Source: Glycomyces albidus
GTDB taxonomy: Bacteria > Actinomycetota > Actinomycetes > Mycobacteriales > Micromonosporaceae
Reading direction: 5' to 3'
NCBI RefSeq assembly: GCF_009451885.1
Contig: NZ_WIAO01000002.1
Span: 1-64,000 of the forward strand
DNA: 64,000 nt
Made by a program: the position numbers and the translations under genes. The number at the start of each line of letters is the position of its first letter. Positions within the stretch are counted from its first letter, which is position 1. This document shows positions 27-21,082 of this stretch, piece by piece. The notes beneath the pieces were generated by a model, which was not told the DNA's origin, searched no databases, and saw nothing but the letters and a program-made list of their open reading frames with translations.

Positions 27-32
27 AGGTGA

Positions 33-1756
33 TCGGGCGGGGGATCGACCGGTCGGGATCACCCCGCCGGCGGCAGTGCTCCAACGAGGCACAAGTCCGG
101 CAAGGCCATGGGAGACGACACTGACACAAGCACGACGGGCATGATCGGCACTCGCCTCGCGCCAGGGTCTGGCACGGGCATCGCCGGTAACCGACCGATG
201 TCGCTGCTGCCCTTCACAACTCAATAGGGGATGCACCAACAAGCGCCGCAGGGTGCGCGCAGAGTGGATGCGCGCCGGGTGGATGCGAGCAGGGCTGCGC
301 CGGGTCTGGTGCGAGGCCGGGGCGGTGATTCGCGCGAGCGTGCGCTCAGGCCGCACCGGATCGCCACAGGTGCTGAAGCGACCGGGACCCAGAGCAATTG
401 GGGCCGGCGTTGCCGCAGTGCGTTTGTGGCTGGTGAGTCGGCGTCCGCCGGGGTCGGCGCGGGTGCAGCTGAGCTGGACGGGTCGCGGATCCCGGCCGAA
501 ACGGGTCTGGGTCGGTGCGGAAGCTGGTGCGCGAGCGTGCGCTGAAGTGCTGAGACCGAACCGCCGCGCCTGCCGAAGCGGCAGGGACGGAGCGGGATCG
601 GTCCCGCGCCTCCCGAGTGCGCTGGGGCCAGGCGGCCGTGGTTCACAGGGACCACCCGAGGCGAGGGGCGATCGGAGCGATCGCCGCTCGCCAGTGCTGG
701 CCGGTTCGGCGTCAGACTCGCTGCACGGACGCGGAACGCCAGGCGACACCAGTGCAGCGGACGAGTTGCGGGGATGACGAACGCGCGGGCCTGCCGTGAG
801 GCGTTGCACGCTGCTCTGGCGCGATGTGAAGCGGTGCCGAGCAGTCAATGCCGAGCAAGGATTGCCGGGCCCGGTCACCTCGGGCCAGATCCGGCCAGGG
901 CGCAAAGCGTGATCGTGCCAGCGGCGGACCGAACTCCGTTCGCAGGCGACCGCATCGCGGCCGGCCGAAGCGGACCCGGCCGCGGCAACGCTTCCGGGTG
1001 CGGGCGGCTCTCTCCGTCATCGGTGCTGTTGTGGACCTGTGATGGATCGGGACCAGAGTCCTGGAGCGCACCGCAACCGCACACGCATCCGGTCGTCGCC
1101 GCCCGATCGAACACCGGCACCGACGAGACCAGGGGTTGACCGGGCACCGGTTCACAGGCCGTGGATGGGGTTGGGCGCCGGCCGAAGCAGTGCCCGGCCA
1201 CAGCGACGCGCCTTCGTCACGTGCGGCTGAACCCGTCGTCGGTGCCCGTGCGGACTTGGTACGGATCGCGACTCGAGGCTCGGAGCGCGTGCCCGCAGCC
1301 GCGCACGTACCCGGTCGTCGCCGTCCGAGCGGACACCGGCCACGACCGGACACTGCCACGGCAACGCCACACCTACAGGGCATGTCCGTGCTCCCGTTCG
1401 CACGCAATTGATGCAGTTACGCCGGCCCAGCCAGACCCGGCCACGGCAACCCGCCTCCGGTGCGTGCGGCTCGCTCCGTCATCGGTGCTTTTGGGGACCT
1501 GTTTTGGATCGGGACCCGAGCCCCGGCGTGCACCCGCATCACGCACCCACCTGCTCGTCGCCGCCTGATCGAACACCGGCCCCGACGCGACCCGATACGA
1601 CGAACTCGTCGTCGGCTACCTCGCTACCACCGTCCACGTCGCCAGCCTCAGCAACTGACTCCACGACATCTCGACAGGGCCTGGCCTGGCTTGGCCTGGC
1701 CCCCTTGGCAACCGGGGTCCATCCCCGAGGGTCCGGGCGACGGTCGGCGTGCCCCG
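33..1756. other. 1.7 kb region without convincing genes, copy 1
   Basis: Open frames exist on both strands but overlap one another, are rich in Arg, Pro and Ala, show no recognisable domain, and lack ribosome-binding sites. Several frames encode the same degenerate motif in different phases, as expected for non-coding repeats. The first bases hold an imperfect palindrome (about 34-74) centred on the perfect CGACCGGTCG at 46-55. The last 80 bases hold short CCTGG-type repeats (about 1676-1712). It may be a decayed gene region or an intergenic repeat cluster. Confidence 0.6.
975..1588. repeat. Three degenerate ~155 bp repeats, copy 1
   Basis: Related blocks lie at about 975-1126, 1193-1348 and 1436-1588, spaced 218 and 243 bp. 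All open with CCCGGCC followed by a CGGCAACGC-like stretch, and carry a GTCGTCGCCG motif before an ACACCGGC end. R1 and R3 are closest. R1 and R2 are also preceded by GCCGGCCGAAGC-like sequence. Their phases differ, which argues against a repeat-containing protein. Confidence 0.65.
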
Positions 1757-2650
1757 TCATTGCGGGGCCAGCACTTGGCTCCTGAAGGTGATCGGGGTCG
1801 TTCCCGTCCGCTGGGCGAAGAACTTGTTGAAGTTCGTCGGGCTCGAGAAGCCGAGGCGTTCGCCGATGCGGGCGGCCGGGATCGGGGAGCAGGCGAGCAT
1901 CCGCTTGGCCTCCAGCACCACCCGCCGGTCGATGAACTCCTTCGCGGGCATCCCGACCGCCGCGATCGTGGCGCGCGAGAGCGTCCTGGGGGAGCAGGCG
2001 AGGGCCTCGGCATAGTCGCTGAGCGTGCGCGTGTTCGCGAAGTCGCGCTCCACCGCGTCGCGGAAGGCCAGATACACCTCGCCCTGCTCGGGGCCGGCGG
2101 GCACGCCCGGCAGGCTCGCGATGCGCAGCACGAGGACCGCGAGCAGGTGCCGCAGCACCTGCCGGCGCGTGTCGGGCGCGAGCCGGTCGGCCGAGTGCTC
2201 CCACTGGAGCTGCGTGGTCGCCGCGCGCAACAGCGCGTGGTCCTCGGCCGCGGGGGAGCGGAGCACCGGCGCGTGCGGGTCGTCCGCGCACACGCCGATC
2301 GCGGTGTCGGGGTCGAGGCAACCGGTCGTGAACCGGATGACGGTGCCCTCGGCGCGGTCGAGGTCGCCCCACTGCTGCACCTGTCCGGGCCGCGCCCACA
2401 GCCACTGCCCCGGGGCGACGGCGTGCTCGCGGAAGTCGACGGCGTGCCGCAGCGCGCCGGAGGTGAGCGTGATGAGGCAGTGCCGGTCGGGCCTGAAGGG
2501 CTGCGAGCGGCCGGCGCCGCCGGCGCGCAGCCGCGAGATCGTGACGATCTCGAGCGACGGGGCCGGGGCACCGAACGAGTCGGCGGGGCACTCCGCGGTG
2601 GTCGGGAATGCGCGGCCCGTTATGTCATCTTGTCGTGTATTCACCAGCAT
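1757..2650 (-). CDS. AraC family transcriptional regulator, copy 1
   Basis: The 297-residue protein has an N-terminal cupin-like effector or oligomerisation region and a C-terminal AraC/XylS double helix-turn-helix of about 95 residues. The second HTH carries the family signature around IGERLGFSSPTNFNKFF. I chose ATG 2650; an in-frame ATG at 2701 would add 17 residues, and neither has a good ribosome-binding site. The gene is divergent from the adjacent DsbA-fold gene, with about 100 bp and a perfect palindrome between them, so it may control that gene. The effector is unknown. GC composition matches its neighbours. Confidence 0.85.
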   Translation of the reverse strand: MLVNTRQDDITGRAFPTTAECPADSFGAPAPSLEIVTISRLRAGGAGRSQPFRPDRHCLITLTSGALRHAVDFREHAVAPGQWLWARPGQVQQWGDLDRAEGTVIRFTTGCLDPDTAIGVCADDPHAPVLRSPAAEDHALLRAATTQLQWEHSADRLAPDTRRQVLRHLLAVLVLRIASLPGVPAGPEQGEVYLAFRDAVERDFANTRTLSDYAEALACSPRTLSRATIAAVGMPAKEFIDRRVVLEAKRMLACSPIPAARIGERLGFSSPTNFNKFFAQRTGTTPITFRSQVLAPQ

Positions 2651-2721
2651 CGAGCGGTACTTTATCCGTTTTTCCGGTCTCGCGAGGCGACTCCCGGCCA
2701 TCGGGACGCCCTGGGGACTAG

Positions 2722-2733
2722 TTCAAATTTGAA
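2722..2733. promoter_or_regulatory. Perfect 12-bp palindrome in the divergent araC/dsbA-like spacer, copy 1
   Basis: TTCAAATTTGAA lies directly before a TACGCT hexamer (2735-2740), which is 7 bases before ATG 2748. A protein bound here would block the putative -10 element. It is unusually AT-rich for this region. It could be an operator for the divergent regulator; that is inference. Confidence 0.5.
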
Positions 2734-2747
2734 GTACGCTGGTGCCC

Positions 2748-3395
2748 ATGACCGAATCCAAGACCGTAGACTTCTGGTTCGACCCCGCCTGCCCCTGGGC
2801 CTGGATGACCTCCCGCTGGATCATCGAGGCGTCCAAACTCCGCGACCTCGACGTGCGCTGGAACGTCATGAGCCTCTTCGTGCTCAACGAGCCGAACCTC
2901 GACGAGCTCCCCGAGTTCTACCAGGACCTCATGCCGAAGACCCTCCCCGCCGTCCGGGTGGCGACCGCCGTCGCCGAGCAGTACGACAACGAGACCCTCG
3001 GCCGCCTCTACACCGCCCTCGGCAACCGGATCCACCTCCGCAAGGAGAAGGACTCCGCGGTGTACATCGCCTCGGCCCTCGAGGCCGTCGGCCTTCCCGC
3101 CGAACTCGCCGGGGCCGCCAAGACCGAGGAATGGGACGAGGCCCTGCGCGCCTCGCACCAGCGCGGCATCGACCTGGTCGGCACCGACGTGGGGACCCCG
3201 GTCGTCGCGGTCGAGAACGACGAGGGCGTCAAGGTCGGCCTCTTCGGCCCGGTCGTGACCCCCGCCCCGCAGGGCGAGGCCGCGGCGAAGCTGTGGGACG
3301 GCGTCTACGCCGTGACCACGACGCCGGGCTTCTACGAGCTCAAGCGCTCGCGCACCGACGGCCCGAACTTCGACAACCTCGTCGACGACCTCTAG
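2748..3395 (+). CDS. DsbA-fold protein, Rv2466c (mycothiol-dependent nitroreductase) family, copy 1
   Basis: The 215-residue protein has a thioredoxin fold with a helical insertion. It aligns with Mycobacterium tuberculosis Rv2466c, a mycothiol-dependent oxidoreductase that activates nitro prodrugs, through DFWFDPACPW near the start, VGTDVGTPVV (cis-Pro loop) and the C-terminal ELKRSRT. The active-site motif is C15-P-W-A18 instead of CPWC, so the second cysteine is missing and a monothiol mechanism is expected. ATG 2748 is preferred to the upstream GTG 2742 because a TACGCT hexamer ends 7 bases before it and there is no Shine-Dalgarno sequence, which points to a leaderless mRNA. Cytoplasmic, no signal peptide. 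Confidence 0.88.
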   Translation: MTESKTVDFWFDPACPWAWMTSRWIIEASKLRDLDVRWNVMSLFVLNEPNLDELPEFYQDLMPKTLPAVRVATAVAEQYDNETLGRLYTALGNRIHLRKEKDSAVYIASALEAVGLPAELAGAAKTEEWDEALRASHQRGIDLVGTDVGTPVVAVENDEGVKVGLFGPVVTPAPQGEAAAKLWDGVYAVTTTPGFYELKRSRTDGPNFDNLVDDL

Positions 3396-3422
3396 GCCGC
3401 CCGGCGGACTCCTGTCCAAAGC

Positions 3423-3458
3423 GGAACGCCCGCAACGCGATCGCGTTGCGGGCGTTCC
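3423..3458. terminator. Bidirectional terminator, copy 1
   Basis: A perfect inverted repeat with 18-base arms (3423-3440 and 3441-3458) lies between the convergent DsbA-like and DUF3145 genes, 27 bases after one stop and 25 after the other. It probably serves both. Confidence 0.85.
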
Positions 3459-3483
3459 GTTCGTCGTTCGTCCGGCCTCGGGC

Positions 3484-3999
3484 CTAGCTGACCTGGGAGA
3501 GCCAGGACTGCTCGGTGCCGCCGGAGGACTGCCGGTACGGCGCGAGTTCGCGCTCCCAGTCCAGGCCGAGGAGCTGGTCCAGTCCGGAGCGGAGCGCCTC
3601 GGCGCTCGTGGTGGTCGCCAGGAGCGCGCGGATGCGGTCCTCGGCGATCATGATGTCGCCGCTGGCGCTCATCGCGGCGCGGTAGGCGCCGCGGCCGGGG
3701 ACGTGCATGATCCGCTCGCCGTCGACGCCCGCGCTCGGGTCCTCGGTGACCTCGAAGCGCAGCATCGGCCACTGCGCCAGGGCCTTCGCGAACTCGGCGC
3801 CCATGCCGGCGTAACCGGTCCAGGGGCGCTCGGCGCGCATGGTGCCCCGCTCGGCCTCCTGCGGGGACCAGCCCAGCTTCACCGTTCCCTGCCGCGAGGA
3901 GCCGCCGGAGCTCTCCAGGACACGCCCGATCGCCCACTCAACGTGCGGGCACACAGCCGGCGGGCTGGAGTGGATGTAGATCACGCCGCGTGTCTGCAT
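3484..3999 (-). CDS. DUF3145 family protein, copy 1
   Basis: The 171-residue cytoplasmic protein opens with MQTRGVIYIHSSPPAVCPHV, characteristic of the actinobacterial DUF3145 family, whose function is unknown. ATG 3999 is clearly the start: an AAGGAGGT ribosome-binding site lies six bases upstream, while the in-frame start further up has none. Later landmarks are LGWSPQEAERG and an acidic C-terminal half. It is transcribed alone from the spacer that also serves the small gene at 4394. Confidence 0.85.
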   Translation of the reverse strand: MQTRGVIYIHSSPPAVCPHVEWAIGRVLESSGGSSRQGTVKLGWSPQEAERGTMRAERPWTGYAGMGAEFAKALAQWPMLRFEVTEDPSAGVDGERIMHVPGRGAYRAAMSASGDIMIAEDRIRALLATTTSAEALRSGLDQLLGLDWERELAPYRQSSGGTEQSWLSQVS

Positions 4000-4393
4000 C
4001 GCGCACCTCCTTGGCAATCGGCGTATCTGAGTACTGGCTCACTCCTTGTGGTCATTTGGCTACGACGTGAAGTCGCCCAACGGGTATCGGCCGGGCCGAT
4101 GAAGGGATGAACTCGGACCCGGCGCGCTATTCCGCTCTGTTACATACTGACAGCTTCGAAAGCATCGCGCTAGGCTTAAACGGCTCCGGGCGCTCACTTT
4201 TTCGATCATTCGATGTGTCACACCTGGTGTATGTGCTAGTGGTCGCACGGCGCACCTGAGCTACACTTGCGCATGACCGGCATACTGTCGGTTTTCTTTT
4301 GTGGTCCAACCCAGGTTCAGTGCCAGTCCTTCGGCTGCTCTCTTCCTGCGTGAGGCCGAAAGTTCGTCTACACGACATGGTGAGGAGACCGGC
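4000..4393. other. 394-bp divergent intergenic region, copy 1
   Basis: This region is clearly AT-richer than its surroundings and lies between two divergent genes. TACACT at 4262-4267 is a plausible -10 for the rightward gene, giving a leader of about 120 bases. Leftward, the DUF3145 ribosome-binding site is at the boundary. I see no conserved RNA motif. Confidence 0.5.
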
Positions 4394-4738
4394 GTGGCAG
4401 CCAACACTTCCAAGACAGCACGCGCTTCCGTCAAGGCCGGCCAGGGCAAGGGCACCGCGGGCCTCAGCGTCCTCGGCGAGTTCAAGTACCTGATCCCGCT
4501 CAACGGCGGCAAGCACGTCTACCTGCGCAACCTGACCACCGGCAAGACCCTGCACCTCGCCACCGGCTCCGAGGCGTTCACCGAGGCCCTCAAGGGCCTG
4601 GCCGCCGCCGGCCACGGTGAGAAGCTCAAGGCCGAGATCGAGGGCCTCGCGGCCAAGCTCCCCGAGCAGGGCTGGGACACCACCCTCAAGAACCTCGAAG
4701 AGGCCGGCGTCTTCTCCGCCGAGGCCGTCGCCGCTTAG
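4394..4738 (+). CDS. Small conserved-looking hypothetical protein, copy 1
   Basis: A 114-residue protein rich in Ala, Lys, Leu and Gly, without signal peptide or membrane segment. GTG 4394 is chosen because GAGGAG lies six bases upstream; a longer frame starting at 4301 has no such site. The middle (residues about 35-60) looks like a small beta structure around LIPLNGGKHVYLRNL, and the rest like two or three helices ending in EAGVFSAEAVAA. I do not recognise a family. Good codon usage, a clear ribosome-binding site and a dedicated promoter region argue that it is real and perhaps well expressed. Confidence 0.7.
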   Translation: MAANTSKTARASVKAGQGKGTAGLSVLGEFKYLIPLNGGKHVYLRNLTTGKTLHLATGSEAFTEALKGLAAAGHGEKLKAEIEGLAAKLPEQGWDTTLKNLEEAGVFSAEAVAA

Positions 4739-4932
4739 GTTTCGCACCAGCGACAGCCGCGCTCCATGCCCCTCCGGGCGTGGGGCGCTTTTCTCATGCC
4801 CGCGGGAATTGGTCGATCAAATGTTCGACACCGCTTTTCGTCGGTCTTATCTGCAACTGCGGAATGCATTCCCCGATTGGGTACGCGGAGTGGAGCGGCT
4901 CACCCGATCGGCCGAACCGATCGGGCAATCGG

Positions 4933-6735
4933 TCAATCCCCGAGATCGCCGGTGCACACCGGTTCGGACATCGGCACCCGGTCCACCGACCAGAGCGCGC
5001 TCACCTGGAAGCAGTACTCCTGGTCCGGACTGAACCCGCCGGTCGTGAACTCGGTCTCGAGCGTGCCCTCGGTGTTGAGCGCCTCGGCCTTCTCGTCGCC
5101 CACGCGCTGCGCGAATACGATGTACCGCAACGTGTCCGTGGCGCCCTCGGGCGCGTCCCACGCGAGGGTCACCTCGCCCTCGTTCCACGACTCGATCGTC
5201 AGGCCCGTCGGCGCGCCCTGGCCGTCCGTGTTCGCCTGGTCGAGGTCGTCGCCGTCCTTGTTCGGCATGAGCAGCCACAGCCACAAGGTCATGACGAGTC
5301 CGAGCACGACCGAGATCGCCAGCCCCAGGTACACGTACCCCTTGAGGCTCCGCCCGTCCGCCTGCTTCGGCTGGGACGGCTTGGAGGGCTTGTACGCCTT
5401 GGTCTTGCGCTGCTTCGCGCCGTCCCGGCCGATCACCGGCGGCGCGAACACCTGCGGTTCGGGCTGCGCGGGCGCCGGCGGAGCCTGCTGCACCGCCCAC
5501 GGGGACGGCGGCGGCTGCATGCTCACCGGCGCCTGCGGCGGCGCCGAGTACGGCGCCACCGACGCCGGGGCGCCGGAGAACGGGGCCGCTGACATCGGTG
5601 CGCCCGAGAACGGCGCCGCCGAGACCGGCGGCGCCCCCGTCTGCCCGTTCAACTGCGCGTAGCGCGGATCGACCGCATGCCCGAGCTGCGCACCGAACCC
5701 GCCCGTGCCGCCGCCGGTCATCCCTCCGGCGGTCGAACCGAGCGTGTTCCCGTACTCCGAGTGCGGCATCGGCGGCACGACGGGCGCGAACGGGTCGAGC
5801 GGCACCCGCGTCCCCCGCGAGGCCACCTCGGGCCGGTAGACCGTCTCCTCGTTCGAGACGTCCCCGATCACCGACGGGGCCGGGGCCTTGCCGATCCCGC
5901 CGCCGTACATCCCGCGCTGGAGCTCCTCGGCGAACGCCTCGCACGAGGCCGGGCGCCGCGCCGGATCCCGCGAGAGGCTCCGCACGAGCAGGTTCTCGAG
6001 CCACTCGGGGACGTCGTCGCGGGGGATCTTCGGCGGGGGCGCGTCGGAGGTGACCCGCTGGCGGTGCGTGTCGGGGTCGGTGCCGCCCTCGGGGTTCGCG
6101 AACGGCGCGAACCCGGCGAGGAGGTGCCACATGCTGGACGCGAGGCTGAACAGGTCGCTCGCGGGCGTCTGGGCCTGCCGCAGCAGCGCCTCCGGCGACG
6201 CGTGGAGCGGGGTGAGTTTGTCGATCGCGGCCGTCGCGGCGAGGGCCGCCGGGGTCCGCGCGATCCCGAAGTCGGCGAGCGCCGGACCGTACTGGCCGCG
6301 GAGGATGTTCTGGGGCTTCACGTCCCGGTGCAGGATGTCCGCCTGGTGGGCGGCCTGGAGCGCCTGGCCGATCTTGACGCCGACGTCGATGACGTCGGGG
6401 ACCGGGAGCGGGCCGTTCGCCTTGAGGATCGCCGAGTACGAGCCGCCCTCGCAGTACTCCATGACGATGAACGGCTGCCCGGCGTCGGTGTGCCCGGTGT
6501 CGATGATCGAGACGATGTGCGGGTGGTTCGAGACCGCGACGGTCGCCTCGAGCTCCTTCTCGACCGAGTCGGCGGTGGTCATGTCGTCGTCGACGAGCAG
6601 GACCTTGACGGCCACGGTCCGGTCCAGCCGCTCCTGGACGGCGCGGTAGACGAACGCGGTCGACCCGTGCGCGACCATCTCGAAGTCGCGGAACCCGGGG
6701 ATGGCCGGATGGAAGGAAGGAGTGGGGAGGCTCAA
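4933..6735 (-). CDS. Membrane Ser/Thr protein kinase with extracytoplasmic FnIII-like domain, copy 1
   Basis: The 600-residue protein has an N-terminal Hanks-type kinase domain (about 15-275) with lysine K44 in VAVK, catalytic loop HRDVKPQN (136-143) and DFG (155-157). A Pro/Ala/Gly/Gln-rich linker of about 190 residues, with repeated SAAPFSGAP-like units, leads to one membrane helix (about 468-492) and an outside domain resembling fibronectin type III. Such architecture suggests a sensor kinase that reads an external or cell-wall signal. The start is TTG 6735 with GGAAGAGAG upstream, and it lies inside a long inverted repeat. It follows the otsB-GH15 gene by 62 bases in the same direction. 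Confidence 0.88.
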   Translation of the reverse strand: MSLPTPSFHPAIPGFRDFEMVAHGSTAFVYRAVQERLDRTVAVKVLLVDDDMTTADSVEKELEATVAVSNHPHIVSIIDTGHTDAGQPFIVMEYCEGGSYSAILKANGPLPVPDVIDVGVKIGQALQAAHQADILHRDVKPQNILRGQYGPALADFGIARTPAALAATAAIDKLTPLHASPEALLRQAQTPASDLFSLASSMWHLLAGFAPFANPEGGTDPDTHRQRVTSDAPPPKIPRDDVPEWLENLLVRSLSRDPARRPASCEAFAEELQRGMYGGGIGKAPAPSVIGDVSNEETVYRPEVASRGTRVPLDPFAPVVPPMPHSEYGNTLGSTAGGMTGGGTGGFGAQLGHAVDPRYAQLNGQTGAPPVSAAPFSGAPMSAAPFSGAPASVAPYSAPPQAPVSMQPPPSPWAVQQAPPAPAQPEPQVFAPPVIGRDGAKQRKTKAYKPSKPSQPKQADGRSLKGYVYLGLAISVVLGLVMTLWLWLLMPNKDGDDLDQANTDGQGAPTGLTIESWNEGEVTLAWDAPEGATDTLRYIVFAQRVGDEKAEALNTEGTLETEFTTGGFSPDQEYCFQVSALWSVDRVPMSEPVCTGDLGD

Positions 6736-6789
6736 GGCGGGGGCTCTCTTCCGGGGACGGTGATCCCGTCCAGATTAGCCCCCGCCTTG
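6733..6789. terminator. Hairpin after otsB-GH15 that includes the kinase start codon, copy 1
   Basis: Perfect 13-base arms (6733-6745 and 6777-6789) enclose an inner GGACGG/CCGTCC stem (6755-6760, 6766-6771). On the minus strand it lies just after the otsB-GH15 stop, as a terminator would, but its distal arm includes the TTG start of the kinase gene (6735) and the arms enclose its ribosome-binding site. Confidence 0.75.
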
Positions 6790-6797
6790 AAACCTTC

Positions 6798-9392
6798 TCA
6801 GATGCGTCCGGCCTGCCCGTTCAGCAGGTTCGCGACCCGGATGAGGCCCAGGTGCGAGTACGCCTGCGGGTGGTTGCCCAGGCCGCGCTCGGCGATCGGG
6901 TCCCACTGCTCGGGCAGCAGCCCGGTCGGGCCCGCGCACGCGAGGATCTGCTCGAACAGCTCCTCGGCGTCCGTGCGGCGGTCGACCTGGAGGTACGCCT
7001 CGGCGAGCCACGCGGCGCAGATGATGAACCCGCCCTCGGTGCCCGGCAGGCCGTCGTCGCGGTGGTAGCGGTAGACCGTCGGGCCCGAGCGCAGGCCGGC
7101 CTCGATCTTGAGGACGGTGCGCAGGTACCGCGGGTCGTCGGGCGGGAGCAGGCCCGAGAGGCCGATCCACAGCGACGCGGCGTCGAGGTCGTCGTGCCCG
7201 TACGCGGCCGTGTAGGCCCCGATCTCGTCGTTCCAGCCCAGCTCGAGCACGTTCTTCGCGATCTGGTCGCGCAGCTCGGGCCACTCGGGCTTGTACTCCA
7301 TGCCGAACTGCTCGGCGATCTTCAGCGCCCGGTCCACGGTCACCCAGCACATGACCTTCGAGTAGACGTGGTGCCGCGGGGCCTGGCGGGCCTCCCAGAT
7401 GCCGTGGTCGGGCTCGTGCCAGCGCTTGGCGACGGCCTCGACCATGTTCGCCATGACCCGCTCCTCGAAGTCCGAGAGGTGCCCGCGGCGCTGGGCGACG
7501 GCCTCGATGAGCATCGCGACCGGGCCGAACACGTCGAGCTGGACCTGGTTCGACGCGGCGTTGTTGATGCGCACCGGCCGCGCCCCGGCGTACCCGGGCA
7601 GCGTGTCGATGATCGCCTCGGGGCTCGGCGGCTGGCCCTCGATGTCGTAGAGCGGCGCGAGGCGCTCGGGGTGCCCGGCGGTGCGCTCGATGATCCCGGC
7701 GACCCACGCGAAGTACGACTCGGCCTCCTGGAGCGAGCCGAGGTCGACGAGCGCGTTCGCGGTCATCGCGGCGTCGCGGATCCAGCAGAACCGGTAGTCC
7801 CAGTTACGGACGCCGCCGAGCTCCTCGGGCAGCGAGGTGGTGCCGGCGGCGAGGATCGCGCCGGTGGGCTGGTAGCACAGGGCCTTGAGCGTCAGGGCCG
7901 AGCGCGAGACCGTCTCGGACTCGATGCGCGGCAGCTTCAGCGAGTCCGACCAGTTGCGCCAGCCGGCCTCGGTGGTGCGGCGGCGCACGTGGACGGGCGG
8001 GCGCCACTCGCCGAGGTCGTCCATGCCGGCGCGCATCTCGAGCACCAGGGACCCGCCGATCTGGGCGAGGTCGACCGTGGCCACGGCCAGCGAGTGCTGG
8101 CCGTCGTACTCGATGTGCCATTCGACGCCCGGCGACCGCAGGCTGATCGGCTCGCGCCCGCCGAGGACCTTCAGGCCGTCGTCGCCGACGGGCTGGAGCT
8201 GCACGGGGAGCTGCCCGAACTCCGGGCGCGGCGCGAACGTGATCCTGACGGGGATCTCGCCGGTGATCTCGCGGACGAGCACCGTGGCGTTGAGGTCGCC
8301 GCGGCGGCGGGGCGTCGAGTCGAGCCAGTCGGTGACCGACAGGCCCGACCAGCGGGTCTCGACGGTCATCGTCCCGGCCACGTACCGCTGGCCGAGCGGG
8401 ATGCCCGCGTTGACCGGCTGCACGGTGAAGTGGCCGGCGTGGTCGCCGCCGAGGAGGTCGGCGAAGACCGAGCCGGAGTCGGGCTTGGGGTGGCACATCC
8501 ACGTGACGCGGCCGTCGGGGGTCAGCAGCGCGTGGTTGGCGCCGTCGGCGATCATCGCGTGCCGCTCGATGAGCTGCGCGGACTCGCCCTGGAGCCAGGC
8601 GCGGCGGGTGTCGACCAGGCGCGCGAGGAGCTTCGCGACCTCTTCGGGGTCGGAGATCCGGTAGGCGGCGCGGGTCGGGCCGGGCCCGACCCGGACGCCG
8701 ACGTCGGGGCCGTGGAGGTGCGCGAACGCGTTCTCGTCGGTGACGTCGTCGCCCAGGAACAGGACTGCGGACGCGCCGAGCTGGTGCCGGAGCTGGTCCA
8801 GGGCGTCGCCCTTGTGGGTCGCGACCACCGACAGGTCGATGACCGCCTTGCCCTCGGTGGTCTGGACGCCGTCCCAGGTCGAGGGGCCTTCCCGGACGTC
8901 CTCGACGGCCTGGAGCGCGGCAGCCTCGGTGGCTTCGCGCACGTGCAGTGCGGCGCCGGCGGGTTTGGGCTCCACCCGGGCGCCCTCGTAGCGTTCGGCG
9001 ATCGCGGACAGCTCGGCGACGAGCTTGTCGCGCAACCGCTGGTCCTCGCTGGAGAGCGCCCGGGTGAAGCCGATGTCGAACTCGGATCCGTGGGATCCGA
9101 CCAGGTGCACTTCGGAAGGCAGGCGGGACAGGGCCGCCAGGTCGCGCAGGGCGCGACCCGAGATGACTGCGACCTTGGTCTGCGGCAGGTTCGCGAGCGT
9201 CCGCAGGGCCGACACCGATTCGGGGATCGGTTTGGCCTGCGAGGGATCGGTCACAATGGGAGCGAGCGTGCCGTCGTAGTCGCACGCGATCAGCAGCTGC
9301 GGAACGCGGGCGAGCAGAGTGAGGGCCGAGCGGAGCTCTTCAGAGGAGCCGGGGCCCTCTGGAGCACGGCCCTCTGGGCTTGGTGCGGTCAT
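6798..9392 (-). CDS. Trehalose-6-phosphate phosphatase fused to a GH15 glucoamylase/trehalase-like domain, copy 1
   Basis: The 864-residue fusion starts with an OtsB HAD phosphatase (about 20-255): nucleophile motif DYDGT (38-42) and a late LGDDVTDENAF motif. From about residue 270 on it is a GH15 domain, with NWDYRFCWIRDA, GIWEARQ carrying the probable catalytic acid, YSKVMCWV, and LLPEQWDP followed by GNHPQAYSHLGL. OtsB makes trehalose from trehalose-6-phosphate; related actinobacterial GH15 enzymes cleave trehalose or alpha-glucans. The substrate of this GH15 half is not provable here. ATG 9392 is chosen over 9413 because GGAGAG lies between them. In this copy the upstream otsA is truncated, so the native promoter is absent. 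Confidence 0.9.
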   Translation of the reverse strand: MTAPSPEGRAPEGPGSSEELRSALTLLARVPQLLIACDYDGTLAPIVTDPSQAKPIPESVSALRTLANLPQTKVAVISGRALRDLAALSRLPSEVHLVGSHGSEFDIGFTRALSSEDQRLRDKLVAELSAIAERYEGARVEPKPAGAALHVREATEAAALQAVEDVREGPSTWDGVQTTEGKAVIDLSVVATHKGDALDQLRHQLGASAVLFLGDDVTDENAFAHLHGPDVGVRVGPGPTRAAYRISDPEEVAKLLARLVDTRRAWLQGESAQLIERHAMIADGANHALLTPDGRVTWMCHPKPDSGSVFADLLGGDHAGHFTVQPVNAGIPLGQRYVAGTMTVETRWSGLSVTDWLDSTPRRRGDLNATVLVREITGEIPVRITFAPRPEFGQLPVQLQPVGDDGLKVLGGREPISLRSPGVEWHIEYDGQHSLAVATVDLAQIGGSLVLEMRAGMDDLGEWRPPVHVRRRTTEAGWRNWSDSLKLPRIESETVSRSALTLKALCYQPTGAILAAGTTSLPEELGGVRNWDYRFCWIRDAAMTANALVDLGSLQEAESYFAWVAGIIERTAGHPERLAPLYDIEGQPPSPEAIIDTLPGYAGARPVRINNAASNQVQLDVFGPVAMLIEAVAQRRGHLSDFEERVMANMVEAVAKRWHEPDHGIWEARQAPRHHVYSKVMCWVTVDRALKIAEQFGMEYKPEWPELRDQIAKNVLELGWNDEIGAYTAAYGHDDLDAASLWIGLSGLLPPDDPRYLRTVLKIEAGLRSGPTVYRYHRDDGLPGTEGGFIICAAWLAEAYLQVDRRTDAEELFEQILACAGPTGLLPEQWDPIAERGLGNHPQAYSHLGLIRVANLLNGQAGRI

Positions 9393-12843: not shown

Positions 12844-12914
12844 CGAGCGGTACTTTATCCGTTTTTCCGGTCTCGCGAGGCGACTCCCGGCCATCGGGAC
12901 GCCCTGGGGACTAG

Positions 12915-12926
12915 TTCAAATTTGAA
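12915..12926. promoter_or_regulatory. Perfect 12-bp palindrome in the divergent araC/dsbA-like spacer, copy 2
   Basis: TTCAAATTTGAA again, placed just before the TACGCT hexamer at 12928-12933 and the ATG at 12941. Candidate operator. Confidence 0.5.
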
Positions 12927-12940
12927 GTACGCTGGTGCCC

Positions 12941-13588
12941 ATGACCGAATCCAAGACCGTAGACTTCTGGTTCGACCCCGCCTGCCCCTGGGCCTGGATG
13001 ACCTCCCGCTGGATCATCGAGGCGTCCAAACTCCGCGACCTCGACGTGCGCTGGAACGTCATGAGCCTCTTCGTGCTCAACGAGCCGAACCTCGACGAGC
13101 TCCCCGAGTTCTACCAGGACCTCATGCCGAAGACCCTCCCCGCCGTCCGGGTGGCGACCGCCGTCGCCGAGCAGTACGACAACGAGACCCTCGGCCGCCT
13201 CTACACCGCCCTCGGCAACCGGATCCACCTCCGCAAGGAGAAGGACTCCGCGGTGTACATCGCCTCGGCCCTCGAGGCCGTCGGCCTTCCCGCCGAACTC
13301 GCCGGGGCCGCCAAGACCGAGGAATGGGACGAGGCCCTGCGCGCCTCGCACCAGCGCGGCATCGACCTGGTCGGCACCGACGTGGGGACCCCGGTCGTCG
13401 CGGTCGAGAACGACGAGGGCGTCAAGGTCGGCCTCTTCGGCCCGGTCGTGACCCCCGCCCCGCAGGGCGAGGCCGCGGCGAAGCTGTGGGACGGCGTCTA
13501 CGCCGTGACCACGACGCCGGGCTTCTACGAGCTCAAGCGCTCGCGCACCGACGGCCCGAACTTCGACAACCTCGTCGACGACCTCTAG
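12941..13588 (+). CDS. DsbA-fold protein, Rv2466c family, copy 2
   Basis: Same 215-residue product as 2748-3395, including the CPWA active site that lacks the second cysteine. Promoter-like hexamer, start and terminator are all duplicated with it, so this copy should be expressed independently of the first. Confidence 0.88.
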   Translation: MTESKTVDFWFDPACPWAWMTSRWIIEASKLRDLDVRWNVMSLFVLNEPNLDELPEFYQDLMPKTLPAVRVATAVAEQYDNETLGRLYTALGNRIHLRKEKDSAVYIASALEAVGLPAELAGAAKTEEWDEALRASHQRGIDLVGTDVGTPVVAVENDEGVKVGLFGPVVTPAPQGEAAAKLWDGVYAVTTTPGFYELKRSRTDGPNFDNLVDDL

Positions 13589-13615
13589 GCCGCCCGGCGG
13601 ACTCCTGTCCAAAGC

Positions 13616-13651
13616 GGAACGCCCGCAACGCGATCGCGTTGCGGGCGTTCC
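13616..13651. terminator. Bidirectional terminator, copy 2
   Basis: Perfect 18-base arms between the convergent second copies of the DsbA-like and DUF3145 genes. Confidence 0.85.
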
Positions 13652-13676
13652 GTTCGTCGTTCGTCCGGCCTCGGGC

Positions 13677-14192
13677 CTAGCTGACCTGGGAGAGCCAGGA
13701 CTGCTCGGTGCCGCCGGAGGACTGCCGGTACGGCGCGAGTTCGCGCTCCCAGTCCAGGCCGAGGAGCTGGTCCAGTCCGGAGCGGAGCGCCTCGGCGCTC
13801 GTGGTGGTCGCCAGGAGCGCGCGGATGCGGTCCTCGGCGATCATGATGTCGCCGCTGGCGCTCATCGCGGCGCGGTAGGCGCCGCGGCCGGGGACGTGCA
13901 TGATCCGCTCGCCGTCGACGCCCGCGCTCGGGTCCTCGGTGACCTCGAAGCGCAGCATCGGCCACTGCGCCAGGGCCTTCGCGAACTCGGCGCCCATGCC
14001 GGCGTAACCGGTCCAGGGGCGCTCGGCGCGCATGGTGCCCCGCTCGGCCTCCTGCGGGGACCAGCCCAGCTTCACCGTTCCCTGCCGCGAGGAGCCGCCG
14101 GAGCTCTCCAGGACACGCCCGATCGCCCACTCAACGTGCGGGCACACAGCCGGCGGGCTGGAGTGGATGTAGATCACGCCGCGTGTCTGCAT
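13677..14192 (-). CDS. DUF3145 family protein, copy 2
   Basis: Same 171-residue product as 3484-3999, with the same AAGGAGGT ribosome-binding site before ATG 14192. Its own promoter region is inside the duplicated block, so it should be functional. Confidence 0.85.
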   Translation of the reverse strand: MQTRGVIYIHSSPPAVCPHVEWAIGRVLESSGGSSRQGTVKLGWSPQEAERGTMRAERPWTGYAGMGAEFAKALAQWPMLRFEVTEDPSAGVDGERIMHVPGRGAYRAAMSASGDIMIAEDRIRALLATTTSAEALRSGLDQLLGLDWERELAPYRQSSGGTEQSWLSQVS

Positions 14193-14586
14193 CGCGCACC
14201 TCCTTGGCAATCGGCGTATCTGAGTACTGGCTCACTCCTTGTGGTCATTTGGCTACGACGTGAAGTCGCCCAACGGGTATCGGCCGGGCCGATGAAGGGA
14301 TGAACTCGGACCCGGCGCGCTATTCCGCTCTGTTACATACTGACAGCTTCGAAAGCATCGCGCTAGGCTTAAACGGCTCCGGGCGCTCACTTTTTCGATC
14401 ATTCGATGTGTCACACCTGGTGTATGTGCTAGTGGTCGCACGGCGCACCTGAGCTACACTTGCGCATGACCGGCATACTGTCGGTTTTCTTTTGTGGTCC
14501 AACCCAGGTTCAGTGCCAGTCCTTCGGCTGCTCTCTTCCTGCGTGAGGCCGAAAGTTCGTCTACACGACATGGTGAGGAGACCGGC
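14193..14586. other. 394-bp divergent intergenic region, copy 2
   Basis: Identical to 4000-4393; a plausible -10 for the rightward small gene is TACACT at 14455-14460. Nothing else recognised. Confidence 0.5.
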
Positions 14587-14931
14587 GTGGCAGCCAACAC
14601 TTCCAAGACAGCACGCGCTTCCGTCAAGGCCGGCCAGGGCAAGGGCACCGCGGGCCTCAGCGTCCTCGGCGAGTTCAAGTACCTGATCCCGCTCAACGGC
14701 GGCAAGCACGTCTACCTGCGCAACCTGACCACCGGCAAGACCCTGCACCTCGCCACCGGCTCCGAGGCGTTCACCGAGGCCCTCAAGGGCCTGGCCGCCG
14801 CCGGCCACGGTGAGAAGCTCAAGGCCGAGATCGAGGGCCTCGCGGCCAAGCTCCCCGAGCAGGGCTGGGACACCACCCTCAAGAACCTCGAAGAGGCCGG
14901 CGTCTTCTCCGCCGAGGCCGTCGCCGCTTAG
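14587..14931 (+). CDS. Small conserved-looking hypothetical protein, copy 2
   Basis: Same 114-residue Ala/Lys-rich product as 4394-4738, with GTG start and GAGGAG ribosome-binding site intact. No family recognised. Confidence 0.7.
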   Translation: MAANTSKTARASVKAGQGKGTAGLSVLGEFKYLIPLNGGKHVYLRNLTTGKTLHLATGSEAFTEALKGLAAAGHGEKLKAEIEGLAAKLPEQGWDTTLKNLEEAGVFSAEAVAA

Positions 14932-15125
14932 GTTTCGCACCAGCGACAGCCGCGCTCCATGCCCCTCCGGGCGTGGGGCGCTTTTCTCATGCCCGCGGGA
15001 ATTGGTCGATCAAATGTTCGACACCGCTTTTCGTCGGTCTTATCTGCAACTGCGGAATGCATTCCCCGATTGGGTACGCGGAGTGGAGCGGCTCACCCGA
15101 TCGGCCGAACCGATCGGGCAATCGG

Positions 15126-16928
15126 TCAATCCCCGAGATCGCCGGTGCACACCGGTTCGGACATCGGCACCCGGTCCACCGACCAGAGCGCGCTCACCTG
15201 GAAGCAGTACTCCTGGTCCGGACTGAACCCGCCGGTCGTGAACTCGGTCTCGAGCGTGCCCTCGGTGTTGAGCGCCTCGGCCTTCTCGTCGCCCACGCGC
15301 TGCGCGAATACGATGTACCGCAACGTGTCCGTGGCGCCCTCGGGCGCGTCCCACGCGAGGGTCACCTCGCCCTCGTTCCACGACTCGATCGTCAGGCCCG
15401 TCGGCGCGCCCTGGCCGTCCGTGTTCGCCTGGTCGAGGTCGTCGCCGTCCTTGTTCGGCATGAGCAGCCACAGCCACAAGGTCATGACGAGTCCGAGCAC
15501 GACCGAGATCGCCAGCCCCAGGTACACGTACCCCTTGAGGCTCCGCCCGTCCGCCTGCTTCGGCTGGGACGGCTTGGAGGGCTTGTACGCCTTGGTCTTG
15601 CGCTGCTTCGCGCCGTCCCGGCCGATCACCGGCGGCGCGAACACCTGCGGTTCGGGCTGCGCGGGCGCCGGCGGAGCCTGCTGCACCGCCCACGGGGACG
15701 GCGGCGGCTGCATGCTCACCGGCGCCTGCGGCGGCGCCGAGTACGGCGCCACCGACGCCGGGGCGCCGGAGAACGGGGCCGCTGACATCGGTGCGCCCGA
15801 GAACGGCGCCGCCGAGACCGGCGGCGCCCCCGTCTGCCCGTTCAACTGCGCGTAGCGCGGATCGACCGCATGCCCGAGCTGCGCACCGAACCCGCCCGTG
15901 CCGCCGCCGGTCATCCCTCCGGCGGTCGAACCGAGCGTGTTCCCGTACTCCGAGTGCGGCATCGGCGGCACGACGGGCGCGAACGGGTCGAGCGGCACCC
16001 GCGTCCCCCGCGAGGCCACCTCGGGCCGGTAGACCGTCTCCTCGTTCGAGACGTCCCCGATCACCGACGGGGCCGGGGCCTTGCCGATCCCGCCGCCGTA
16101 CATCCCGCGCTGGAGCTCCTCGGCGAACGCCTCGCACGAGGCCGGGCGCCGCGCCGGATCCCGCGAGAGGCTCCGCACGAGCAGGTTCTCGAGCCACTCG
16201 GGGACGTCGTCGCGGGGGATCTTCGGCGGGGGCGCGTCGGAGGTGACCCGCTGGCGGTGCGTGTCGGGGTCGGTGCCGCCCTCGGGGTTCGCGAACGGCG
16301 CGAACCCGGCGAGGAGGTGCCACATGCTGGACGCGAGGCTGAACAGGTCGCTCGCGGGCGTCTGGGCCTGCCGCAGCAGCGCCTCCGGCGACGCGTGGAG
16401 CGGGGTGAGTTTGTCGATCGCGGCCGTCGCGGCGAGGGCCGCCGGGGTCCGCGCGATCCCGAAGTCGGCGAGCGCCGGACCGTACTGGCCGCGGAGGATG
16501 TTCTGGGGCTTCACGTCCCGGTGCAGGATGTCCGCCTGGTGGGCGGCCTGGAGCGCCTGGCCGATCTTGACGCCGACGTCGATGACGTCGGGGACCGGGA
16601 GCGGGCCGTTCGCCTTGAGGATCGCCGAGTACGAGCCGCCCTCGCAGTACTCCATGACGATGAACGGCTGCCCGGCGTCGGTGTGCCCGGTGTCGATGAT
16701 CGAGACGATGTGCGGGTGGTTCGAGACCGCGACGGTCGCCTCGAGCTCCTTCTCGACCGAGTCGGCGGTGGTCATGTCGTCGTCGACGAGCAGGACCTTG
16801 ACGGCCACGGTCCGGTCCAGCCGCTCCTGGACGGCGCGGTAGACGAACGCGGTCGACCCGTGCGCGACCATCTCGAAGTCGCGGAACCCGGGGATGGCCG
16901 GATGGAAGGAAGGAGTGGGGAGGCTCAA
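15126..16928 (-). CDS. Membrane Ser/Thr protein kinase with extracytoplasmic FnIII-like domain, copy 2
   Basis: Same 600-residue product as 4933-6735 with HRDVKPQN, DFG, a Pro-rich linker, one membrane helix and an outer FnIII-like domain. In this copy the upstream otsA-otsB unit is complete, so any read-through from the native otsA promoter would reach this kinase gene and not the first copy. Confidence 0.88.
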   Translation of the reverse strand: MSLPTPSFHPAIPGFRDFEMVAHGSTAFVYRAVQERLDRTVAVKVLLVDDDMTTADSVEKELEATVAVSNHPHIVSIIDTGHTDAGQPFIVMEYCEGGSYSAILKANGPLPVPDVIDVGVKIGQALQAAHQADILHRDVKPQNILRGQYGPALADFGIARTPAALAATAAIDKLTPLHASPEALLRQAQTPASDLFSLASSMWHLLAGFAPFANPEGGTDPDTHRQRVTSDAPPPKIPRDDVPEWLENLLVRSLSRDPARRPASCEAFAEELQRGMYGGGIGKAPAPSVIGDVSNEETVYRPEVASRGTRVPLDPFAPVVPPMPHSEYGNTLGSTAGGMTGGGTGGFGAQLGHAVDPRYAQLNGQTGAPPVSAAPFSGAPMSAAPFSGAPASVAPYSAPPQAPVSMQPPPSPWAVQQAPPAPAQPEPQVFAPPVIGRDGAKQRKTKAYKPSKPSQPKQADGRSLKGYVYLGLAISVVLGLVMTLWLWLLMPNKDGDDLDQANTDGQGAPTGLTIESWNEGEVTLAWDAPEGATDTLRYIVFAQRVGDEKAEALNTEGTLETEFTTGGFSPDQEYCFQVSALWSVDRVPMSEPVCTGDLGD

Positions 16929-16982
16929 GGCGGGGGCTCTCTTCCGGGGACGGTGATCCCGTCCAGATTAGCCCCCGCCTTG
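16926..16982. terminator. Hairpin after otsB-GH15 that includes the kinase start codon, copy 2
   Basis: Same 13-base-arm inverted repeat as 6733-6789, with one arm containing the TTG start at 16928. Confidence 0.75.
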
Positions 16983-16990
16983 AAACCTTC

Positions 16991-19585
16991 TCAGATGCGT
17001 CCGGCCTGCCCGTTCAGCAGGTTCGCGACCCGGATGAGGCCCAGGTGCGAGTACGCCTGCGGGTGGTTGCCCAGGCCGCGCTCGGCGATCGGGTCCCACT
17101 GCTCGGGCAGCAGCCCGGTCGGGCCCGCGCACGCGAGGATCTGCTCGAACAGCTCCTCGGCGTCCGTGCGGCGGTCGACCTGGAGGTACGCCTCGGCGAG
17201 CCACGCGGCGCAGATGATGAACCCGCCCTCGGTGCCCGGCAGGCCGTCGTCGCGGTGGTAGCGGTAGACCGTCGGGCCCGAGCGCAGGCCGGCCTCGATC
17301 TTGAGGACGGTGCGCAGGTACCGCGGGTCGTCGGGCGGGAGCAGGCCCGAGAGGCCGATCCACAGCGACGCGGCGTCGAGGTCGTCGTGCCCGTACGCGG
17401 CCGTGTAGGCCCCGATCTCGTCGTTCCAGCCCAGCTCGAGCACGTTCTTCGCGATCTGGTCGCGCAGCTCGGGCCACTCGGGCTTGTACTCCATGCCGAA
17501 CTGCTCGGCGATCTTCAGCGCCCGGTCCACGGTCACCCAGCACATGACCTTCGAGTAGACGTGGTGCCGCGGGGCCTGGCGGGCCTCCCAGATGCCGTGG
17601 TCGGGCTCGTGCCAGCGCTTGGCGACGGCCTCGACCATGTTCGCCATGACCCGCTCCTCGAAGTCCGAGAGGTGCCCGCGGCGCTGGGCGACGGCCTCGA
17701 TGAGCATCGCGACCGGGCCGAACACGTCGAGCTGGACCTGGTTCGACGCGGCGTTGTTGATGCGCACCGGCCGCGCCCCGGCGTACCCGGGCAGCGTGTC
17801 GATGATCGCCTCGGGGCTCGGCGGCTGGCCCTCGATGTCGTAGAGCGGCGCGAGGCGCTCGGGGTGCCCGGCGGTGCGCTCGATGATCCCGGCGACCCAC
17901 GCGAAGTACGACTCGGCCTCCTGGAGCGAGCCGAGGTCGACGAGCGCGTTCGCGGTCATCGCGGCGTCGCGGATCCAGCAGAACCGGTAGTCCCAGTTAC
18001 GGACGCCGCCGAGCTCCTCGGGCAGCGAGGTGGTGCCGGCGGCGAGGATCGCGCCGGTGGGCTGGTAGCACAGGGCCTTGAGCGTCAGGGCCGAGCGCGA
18101 GACCGTCTCGGACTCGATGCGCGGCAGCTTCAGCGAGTCCGACCAGTTGCGCCAGCCGGCCTCGGTGGTGCGGCGGCGCACGTGGACGGGCGGGCGCCAC
18201 TCGCCGAGGTCGTCCATGCCGGCGCGCATCTCGAGCACCAGGGACCCGCCGATCTGGGCGAGGTCGACCGTGGCCACGGCCAGCGAGTGCTGGCCGTCGT
18301 ACTCGATGTGCCATTCGACGCCCGGCGACCGCAGGCTGATCGGCTCGCGCCCGCCGAGGACCTTCAGGCCGTCGTCGCCGACGGGCTGGAGCTGCACGGG
18401 GAGCTGCCCGAACTCCGGGCGCGGCGCGAACGTGATCCTGACGGGGATCTCGCCGGTGATCTCGCGGACGAGCACCGTGGCGTTGAGGTCGCCGCGGCGG
18501 CGGGGCGTCGAGTCGAGCCAGTCGGTGACCGACAGGCCCGACCAGCGGGTCTCGACGGTCATCGTCCCGGCCACGTACCGCTGGCCGAGCGGGATGCCCG
18601 CGTTGACCGGCTGCACGGTGAAGTGGCCGGCGTGGTCGCCGCCGAGGAGGTCGGCGAAGACCGAGCCGGAGTCGGGCTTGGGGTGGCACATCCACGTGAC
18701 GCGGCCGTCGGGGGTCAGCAGCGCGTGGTTGGCGCCGTCGGCGATCATCGCGTGCCGCTCGATGAGCTGCGCGGACTCGCCCTGGAGCCAGGCGCGGCGG
18801 GTGTCGACCAGGCGCGCGAGGAGCTTCGCGACCTCTTCGGGGTCGGAGATCCGGTAGGCGGCGCGGGTCGGGCCGGGCCCGACCCGGACGCCGACGTCGG
18901 GGCCGTGGAGGTGCGCGAACGCGTTCTCGTCGGTGACGTCGTCGCCCAGGAACAGGACTGCGGACGCGCCGAGCTGGTGCCGGAGCTGGTCCAGGGCGTC
19001 GCCCTTGTGGGTCGCGACCACCGACAGGTCGATGACCGCCTTGCCCTCGGTGGTCTGGACGCCGTCCCAGGTCGAGGGGCCTTCCCGGACGTCCTCGACG
19101 GCCTGGAGCGCGGCAGCCTCGGTGGCTTCGCGCACGTGCAGTGCGGCGCCGGCGGGTTTGGGCTCCACCCGGGCGCCCTCGTAGCGTTCGGCGATCGCGG
19201 ACAGCTCGGCGACGAGCTTGTCGCGCAACCGCTGGTCCTCGCTGGAGAGCGCCCGGGTGAAGCCGATGTCGAACTCGGATCCGTGGGATCCGACCAGGTG
19301 CACTTCGGAAGGCAGGCGGGACAGGGCCGCCAGGTCGCGCAGGGCGCGACCCGAGATGACTGCGACCTTGGTCTGCGGCAGGTTCGCGAGCGTCCGCAGG
19401 GCCGACACCGATTCGGGGATCGGTTTGGCCTGCGAGGGATCGGTCACAATGGGAGCGAGCGTGCCGTCGTAGTCGCACGCGATCAGCAGCTGCGGAACGC
19501 GGGCGAGCAGAGTGAGGGCCGAGCGGAGCTCTTCAGAGGAGCCGGGGCCCTCTGGAGCACGGCCCTCTGGGCTTGGTGCGGTCAT
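16991..19585 (-). CDS. Trehalose-6-phosphate phosphatase fused to a GH15 domain, copy 2
   Basis: Same 864-residue OtsB-GH15 fusion as 6798-9392. Here it lies 66 bases after the complete otsA in the same direction, forming a two-gene trehalose operon: OtsA makes trehalose-6-phosphate from UDP-glucose (or another NDP-glucose) and glucose-6-phosphate, and the OtsB half removes the phosphate. This is the copy in its native operon. Confidence 0.92.
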   Translation of the reverse strand: MTAPSPEGRAPEGPGSSEELRSALTLLARVPQLLIACDYDGTLAPIVTDPSQAKPIPESVSALRTLANLPQTKVAVISGRALRDLAALSRLPSEVHLVGSHGSEFDIGFTRALSSEDQRLRDKLVAELSAIAERYEGARVEPKPAGAALHVREATEAAALQAVEDVREGPSTWDGVQTTEGKAVIDLSVVATHKGDALDQLRHQLGASAVLFLGDDVTDENAFAHLHGPDVGVRVGPGPTRAAYRISDPEEVAKLLARLVDTRRAWLQGESAQLIERHAMIADGANHALLTPDGRVTWMCHPKPDSGSVFADLLGGDHAGHFTVQPVNAGIPLGQRYVAGTMTVETRWSGLSVTDWLDSTPRRRGDLNATVLVREITGEIPVRITFAPRPEFGQLPVQLQPVGDDGLKVLGGREPISLRSPGVEWHIEYDGQHSLAVATVDLAQIGGSLVLEMRAGMDDLGEWRPPVHVRRRTTEAGWRNWSDSLKLPRIESETVSRSALTLKALCYQPTGAILAAGTTSLPEELGGVRNWDYRFCWIRDAAMTANALVDLGSLQEAESYFAWVAGIIERTAGHPERLAPLYDIEGQPPSPEAIIDTLPGYAGARPVRINNAASNQVQLDVFGPVAMLIEAVAQRRGHLSDFEERVMANMVEAVAKRWHEPDHGIWEARQAPRHHVYSKVMCWVTVDRALKIAEQFGMEYKPEWPELRDQIAKNVLELGWNDEIGAYTAAYGHDDLDAASLWIGLSGLLPPDDPRYLRTVLKIEAGLRSGPTVYRYHRDDGLPGTEGGFIICAAWLAEAYLQVDRRTDAEELFEQILACAGPTGLLPEQWDPIAERGLGNHPQAYSHLGLIRVANLLNGQAGRI

Positions 19586-19651
19586 CGTGGCGTATCTCTC
19601 CAACACCGTCGTTGTGGAATCTGTGTGCCTACCGGCCCCTGCCTGCCGTTT

Positions 19652-21082
19652 TCAGTCGGCGGAGGGCAGGCTGCCCGGATCATACGCCGCGCTGCGCTCC
19701 GGAACACCCAGCGCCGTAAGGAAGCTGCGCGCCCAACGGGAGACATCGTGCTTGCGCAGGTACCGCCTCATGGCGCGCATTCTCTTCATCTTATCGTCGT
19801 CGGACGCGGTCGCCGCTGTCACGAATCCGTCTTTCAGGTCTGTCAGATCGTGCGGATTCACCAGGAACGCCTGCCGCAGATCCCCTGCGGCACCGGCGAA
19901 CTCGCTGAGCACGAGCGCGCCCCGGTTGTCGATCCGGCTCGCGACGTACTCCTTCGCGACGAGGTTCATACCGTCGCGCAGCGGTGTCACGGCCATCACG
20001 TCGGCCGCCTGGTACAGGGCCGACAGCTCGAACCGGTCGAACGACTGGTGCAGGTAGTGCACGGCCGGGAGCCCGACCTGGCCGTACTCGCCGTTGATCC
20101 GCCCGACCTCCCGCTCGACCCGCTCGCGCAGGGCGATGTACTGGTCGACGCGCTCGCGGCTGGGGGTCGCGACCTGGATCATGACCACCCGCGGCACCTC
20201 GAACCGGCCGTCCTCCAAGAGCTCGCGGAACGCCTTCAGGCGCTGTTCGATGCCCTTGGTGTAGTCGAGCCGGTCGACGCCGAGGATGATCGTCTCCGGT
20301 TCGCCGAGTTCGGCCCTGATCTCCTTGGCGCGCTGGCGGACCCGCTCGGTGTTCGCCACTTCTTCGTTCGAGGCGGTGTCGATGGAGATGGGGAAGGCGT
20401 CGGCCCTGACGAGGCGGTCGTCGACGTTGACGTAGTGCCCCCTCGGCCGGTAGCCGAGCAGGTGCCGGGTGAGCGCGAGGAAGTTCTGCGCCGCGAGCGG
20501 GCGCTGGAAGCCGACCAGGTCGGCGCCCAGGAGCCCCTTGAGGATCTCCATGCGGTGGGGGAGCTGCATGAACAGTTCGACCGGCGGGAACGGGATGTGC
20601 AGGAAGAACCCGATCCGCAGGTCGGGGCGGCGCTCGCGGAGCATGCCGGGGACGAGCTGGAGCTGGTAGTCCTGGACCCACACGACCGCGCCGGGGGCGG
20701 CTTCGGCGGCGCACACCTCGGCGAACCGCTCGTTGACCTCGTAGTAGGACTTCCACCAGGAGCGGCGGAAGACGCGGGGCTCGACCGCGTCGTGGTAGAG
20801 CGGCCACAGCGAGGCGTTCGAGAACCCCTCGTAGTAGCGGTGGATCTCGTCCTTGCTGAGCTCGACCGGCAGCAGGGTGACGCCGTCGGACGTGAAGCGC
20901 TCGGGGGCGGCGCCGGGGATGCCGGCCCAGCCGATCCAGGTGCCCTGGTTGGCCTGGAGAACGGGTTCGAGGGCGGTGACGAGGCCGCCAGGGGATCGGC
21001 GCCAGGTTCGGTTTCCCTCTTCATCGACGACTGCGTCGACGGGGAGGCGGTTGGCCACGACGATGAACGATGCGTTGCTCAA
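19652..21082 (-). CDS. otsA: Trehalose-6-phosphate synthase (GT20)
   Basis: The 476-residue GT-B glycosyltransferase has the usual family length. Visible motifs are NRLPV (11-15), GWAGIPG (51-57), WVQDYQLQLVP (135-145), FLHIPFPP (160-167), GVDRLDYTKGI and DGMNLVAKE, covering sugar-phosphate and nucleotide-sugar binding. The start is TTG 21082 with an excellent AAAGGAGG seven bases upstream. It is divergent from ettA across 161 bp. The duplicated block ends at 20418 inside this gene, so codons 1-221 exist only here. Confidence 0.95.
   Translation of the reverse strand: MSNASFIVVANRLPVDAVVDEEGNRTWRRSPGGLVTALEPVLQANQGTWIGWAGIPGAAPERFTSDGVTLLPVELSKDEIHRYYEGFSNASLWPLYHDAVEPRVFRRSWWKSYYEVNERFAEVCAAEAAPGAVVWVQDYQLQLVPGMLRERRPDLRIGFFLHIPFPPVELFMQLPHRMEILKGLLGADLVGFQRPLAAQNFLALTRHLLGYRPRGHYVNVDDRLVRADAFPISIDTASNEEVANTERVRQRAKEIRAELGEPETIILGVDRLDYTKGIEQRLKAFRELLEDGRFEVPRVVMIQVATPSRERVDQYIALRERVEREVGRINGEYGQVGLPAVHYLHQSFDRFELSALYQAADVMAVTPLRDGMNLVAKEYVASRIDNRGALVLSEFAGAAGDLRQAFLVNPHDLTDLKDGFVTAATASDDDKMKRMRAMRRYLRKHDVSRWARSFLTALGVPERSAAYDPGSLPSAD

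Follow-up and report, generated by a model that had tools for sequence, protein, structure and literature searches.

Bacterial duplications can arise by non-homologous recombination, are found at single loci at frequencies of about 1e-2 to 1e-6, and give rise to amplifications that are hard to assemble from short reads, according to the portions of a published account drawn on here (PMC11721125). One described case is isolate M1-L of Pseudomonas fluorescens SBW25, which carries a 45,043-bp tandem duplication in which murB is joined to an intergenic repeat, with no obvious homology at the endpoints in the excerpted account of that isolate (PMC7661048). Here we analyze a 10,193-bp segment of Glycomyces albidus that stands as two head-to-tail copies in the window, by which we mean the whole stretch of DNA examined, bases 1-64000 of contig NZ_WIAO01000002.1 (C12; 350,008 bp) in a draft of 88 contigs (GCF_009451885.1). 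One end of the segment lies beside a hairpin in a dispersed repeat that we call R, and the other lies inside otsA. Judged from its sequence, the segment probably represents a real, recent, homology-independent tandem duplication in the chromosome, perhaps carried by part of the culture (probability roughly 60%).

Comparison of the window with itself gave a maximal exact match at an offset of 10,193, in which bases 33-10225 equal bases 10226-20418 with zero mismatches, exactly as a preliminary description of this DNA had reported; at the level of the assembly, adjacent head-to-tail copies of one segment are present. The edges of the unit are sharp, with A at base 32 against T at base 10225, and T at base 10226 against C at base 20419. 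Since the next longest exact repeat was only 304 bp in 38 fetched pieces of the assembly (380,269 of 5,763,264 bases, including the window and 7.1 and 8.0 kb of C40 and C29, two other contigs that hold a right half of R), the match did not arise by chance. The copies and their joint are as follows.

33..10225, + strand: copy 1 of the 10,193-bp unit, defined by the exact match.
10226..20418, + strand: copy 2 of the unit, letter for letter the same as copy 1.
10225..10226, no strand: joint from otsA (unit end) to the R core (unit start), without microhomology.

Elsewhere in the window, the sole other direct repeat of at least 25 bases is an exact one of about 61 bases (59982-60042 and 61035-61095, spacing 1053).

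The joint links a site within otsA to a site in the R core 10.2 kb upstream in the same orientation. The two breakpoints were alike at 7 of 24 bases, where the random mean is 7.0, and the best likeness over offsets of -3 to +3 was 11 of 24 (P 0.42); homology at the joint is not above chance. Unequal recombination between direct repeats was rejected as the first step, because the R core lies at the left end only and the joint has no homology. For the otsA edge, a query spanning the joint gave just a weak match, of 38 bp, in the rest of the genome. Alignments of this query to other R copies (for example, in genomes G014 and G021 and in contig C11 of the same genome) ran 4-18 bases left past the joint and not into otsA, and such R-core matches were left out of the joint count. 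Bases 1-95 of the window are identical to other R copies, and base 96 is the first copy-specific one (T here, A in the other copies shown). The sequence past the joint reaches this T, so the joint was assembled into this very copy of R.

These features bear on a less probable but substantial alternative, namely that the joint is an artefact of the library or the assembly, in which a false joint, due to chimeric molecules or to a mistake of the assembler close to the broken R, created a loop that was walked once, the genome itself being single-copy. The joint contains no common sequence that could mislead a de Bruijn graph, and reads holding it therefore seem to be needed. The direct geometry in cis and the copy-specific base 96 at the joint likewise speak against an artefact, as does the finding that the 38 pieces, C40 and C29 included, contained no further exact repeat longer than 304 bp. 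A head-to-tail arrangement in cis over 10 kb fits a tandem duplication, and a random chimera would take this form only rarely, by our estimate in fewer than one case in a hundred.

The k-mer content of the assembly speaks on the other side. Exact 10-kb copies are inseparable by short reads: the two-copy window and a collapsed one-copy arrangement differ by only 126 127-mers, all of which cross the joint, and the claim of two copies amounts to these. The 127-mer set is the same whether the unit is present two, three or five times or once together with a circle. Because these sets are equal and one path may be walked twice, the contig says neither "exactly two" nor "very recent", and neither copy number nor the share of cells with the joint is readable from it. 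The preliminary description had offered a very recent event or an artefact, which is the right pair of options, yet identical copies say little for recency in a k-mer assembly, where one loop can simply be walked twice. The same equality of k-mer sets would accommodate one chromosomal copy accompanied by a 10,193-bp circle that has been excised, or another mixed state. This is very improbable, because the homology-free joint offers no obvious means of excision and no replication, integrase, recombinase or transposase family was found in the 19 scanned of the 35 open reading frames (ORFs) of at least 100 amino acids (aa) in copy 1. As far as this partial scan goes, the earlier statement that transposases and integrases are lacking stands, and a composite transposon or an integrative or other mobile element was rejected on the same result.

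Unit 1 begins 32 bp from the start of C12, within a copy of R, and the following features were assigned there.

1..32, + strand: stub of the native left flank at the C12 start, belonging to the conserved R core by identity to other R copies.
3..26, no strand: perfect 9-bp hairpin (CCCCACCCC/GGGGTGGGG) in the R core, its foot 6 bases left of the unit start.
33..1756, + strand: right-hand part of R in copy 1 (copy 2: 10226-11949), like the right halves of other R copies to about base 1700.

The first ~1.7 kb of the unit is R sequence. The preliminary description had found no marks at the edges; this is correct only in part, since R and a contig end lie at the left edge, which is thereby marked after all. 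Six contig ends fall in the R core and four more (C74 start, C31 end, C6 start and C12 end) in outer parts of R. Only the right half of R is present at three contig ends (C12 start, C40 end and C29 start), and only the left half at three others (C34 end, C64 start and C53 start). The start of C12 in this repeat, whose core has six contig ends, and just 32 bp before the unit, favors an artefact.

To characterize the assembly, we compared 78 readable contig ends with the fetched pieces, which cover part of the genome only, for the longest exact common prefix. The overlap was 95 bases at five ends (C12 start, C40 end, C53 start, C15 start and C70 start), 127 bases at nine (C74 start, C31 end, C34 end, C6 start, C12 end, C88 start, C7 end, C50 start and C58 start) and 128 bases at six (C20 start, C6 end, C59 end, both ends of C79 and C73 end); 17 of the remaining ends had an overlap of another length, from 36 to 126, and 41 had none. 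Such overlaps suggest an iterative (multi-k) de Bruijn short-read assembly with k values of 95 and 127. Exactly 95 bases of C12 precede base 96, where the R copy of the window first differs from the near-identical copies compared; the unit starts another 32 bases inward from the contig start, 32 being 127-95. An offset equal to the step between the two presumed k values again favors an artefact. We considered this step as the direct cause of a unit start at base 33 and found no mechanism, which leaves it unproved; a k=63 boundary (96-63) was considered too and is likewise unproved, with no 63-base overlap among the compared contig ends and again no mechanism found. Hand merging was also rejected as the cause of C12 being out of size order, the contig numbering apparently following lexicographic sorting of names.

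R itself is a dispersed, apparently non-coding element of ~2-3 kb, with a hairpin core of ~250-300 bp and variable flanks. Bases 1-60 of the window occur exactly at seven sites in the genome, the window included. The core extends from at least 160 bases before window base 1 (perhaps ~200, as part of an alignment suggests) to 95 bases after it and is nearly invariant in the six copies assembled through it; C11 holds a diverged copy (83%). The flanks are less alike, at roughly 62-93% in the compared pieces, and contain internal repeats. Besides window bases 1-1756 and 10226-11949, R was located at C2:71071, C8:75614, C9:42215, C12:172293, C17:84355 and C18:81630, as well as at contig ends. Several congeners gave matches to its core at about 80-88% identity, G006 alone having 20. 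The gene to the left of R points towards it at the six callable sites (C2, C8, C12:172293, C17, C18 and C64). None of the scanned ORFs of the right-hand part of R in the window had a Pfam match, and no Rfam family exceeded its threshold in the first 22 kb of the window or in six other R loci; the initial idea of a 13E12/DUF222-HNH gene at 1-1756 was rejected on these grounds.

Folded as DNA, the hairpin region (bases 1-60) gave a z of -2.89, with 2/200 shuffles folding equally well or better. The R core hairpin might be a preferred breakage point at which failed replication or repair yields homology-free tandem duplications starting just past the hairpin, an idea that we consider doubtful; if it were true, R would be a source of gene amplification in the genus. 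The hairpin could presumably stop polymerases in vitro as well, a further point for an artefact. Of the two objects, R is more curious than the duplication.

The preliminary description had also proposed a comparison of related strains. The joint was found in 0/21 congeners searched, and all 11 loci fetched from among these 21 showed a single-copy order without R, in which the C64 genes lead into the unit at its AraC end and the remainder of the unit and otsA come next, all in a single copy; these genomes are drafts, in which collapsed copies could be hidden. Between the pieces matching C64 and those matching the unit, the congeners have 27 to 369 unaligned bases, and in the genome of the window this place is filled by R, of which ~0.9 kb lies towards C64 and 1.76 kb towards C12. 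Since all 11 loci share this order, the C64 start is likely the left neighbor of C12, the single-copy order is ancestral, and R is extra at this site.

Together, these observations are consistent with a real tandem duplication that would have formed in the following way. The R hairpin may have been the site of a break or of fork stalling, and the DNA there may have been joined to otsA of a sister chromosome by a homology-independent route, for which the candidates are Ku end joining, a gyrase error, strand slippage and, where a fork has stalled, template switching. Ku end joining is possible because the genome holds two Ku genes, seen as matches over the cut-off to the Ku family (C4:32205-32735 and C16:59863-60333); an end-joining system is likely present. 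The resulting loop would then have been traversed by the assembler, in the simplest case once. Such a duplication would probably be neutral or transient, and recombination between the copies would remove it. Several points weigh against this reading: it is drawn from the contig sequence; a contig end is only 32 bp from the unit, in a repeat that assembled badly; the coincidence of 32 with 127-95 hints at an assembler effect, although its mechanism was not found; the species is represented by one genome in the comparison; and an artefact, too, predicts that congeners would lack the joint.

The remaining features of the unit are genes, with the copy 1 coordinates given first.

1757..2701, - strand: AraC-family regulator (PF12833, 1.5e-19; copy 2: 11950-12894).
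2742..3395, + strand: Rv2466c-like mycothiol-dependent nitroreductase (PF22234, 4.2e-70; copy 2: 12935-13588).
3484..4017, - strand: DUF3145 protein (PF11343, 5.6e-58; copy 2: 13677-14210).
4933..6735, - strand: PknB-like Ser/Thr protein kinase with an fn3 domain (PF00069, 7.9e-35; copy 2: 15126-16928), start codon uncertain.
6798..9413, - strand: trehalose-phosphatase/TREH_N/GH15 fusion of 871 aa (copy 2: 16991-19606).
9459..10322, - strand: otsA cut by the joint, comprising 254 C-terminal OtsA residues plus readthrough from R.
19652..21082, - strand: intact otsA of 476 aa, spanning the right edge of copy 2 (PF00982, 1.7e-145; TIGR02400, 535.1 bits, below the cut-off of 564.85).

The first five are doubled as whole genes. 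The gene list of the preliminary description was correct for the AraC regulator, the mycothiol-linked enzyme, DUF3145 and the phosphatase-GH15 protein, whereas its "sensor kinase" is the PknB-like Ser/Thr kinase with fn3, for which the best model was NF033483, at a score below the cut-off of that model. The fusion of a trehalose-6-phosphate phosphatase with a GH15 trehalase-like part adjoins otsA, which places trehalose synthesis and breakdown in one gene pair. OtsA in copy 1 keeps 254/476 residues and has lost its N-terminal part, leaving the gene intact only at copy 2. Because the sequence upstream of otsA lies outside the duplicated segment, the copy 1 trehalase fusion may be expressed only weakly. 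Nothing found here supports the suggestion of selection for gene dosage: otsA is cut in copy 1, and the copy 1 trehalase fusion lies downstream of the cut gene, at a distance from the upstream region of the intact otsA.

The choice thus lies between an ordinary tandem duplication and an artefact of a broken repeat, and we lean, with moderate confidence, to the duplication. If it is real, it adds another natural example of a bacterial tandem duplication caught soon after it arose, one end of which falls in a dispersed repeat, and the dosage of the whole genes would be doubled only where their promoters fall inside the unit. If it is false, a spurious second gene set enters public annotation. 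In either case, a long exact duplication tells nothing of copy number and little of age when it comes from a de Bruijn assembly.

Among known systems, a loop walked by a de Bruijn assembler would likewise present exact copies, a contig end and k-sized overlaps between contig ends, but such a loop still requires the joint sequence from some source. RecA-dependent unequal recombination, as at rrn and rhs, also gives head-to-tail copies, but it needs homology at both ends, whereas the unit described here has a repeat at its left end only. By analogy, the anatomy of the duplication appears close to that of SBW25 M1-L as the excerpted account presents it (PMC7661048): the unit in the window is 10 kb rather than 45,043 bp and is known from an assembly alone, and in both cases direct copies meet at a junction between a gene and an intergenic repeat with no obvious homology.
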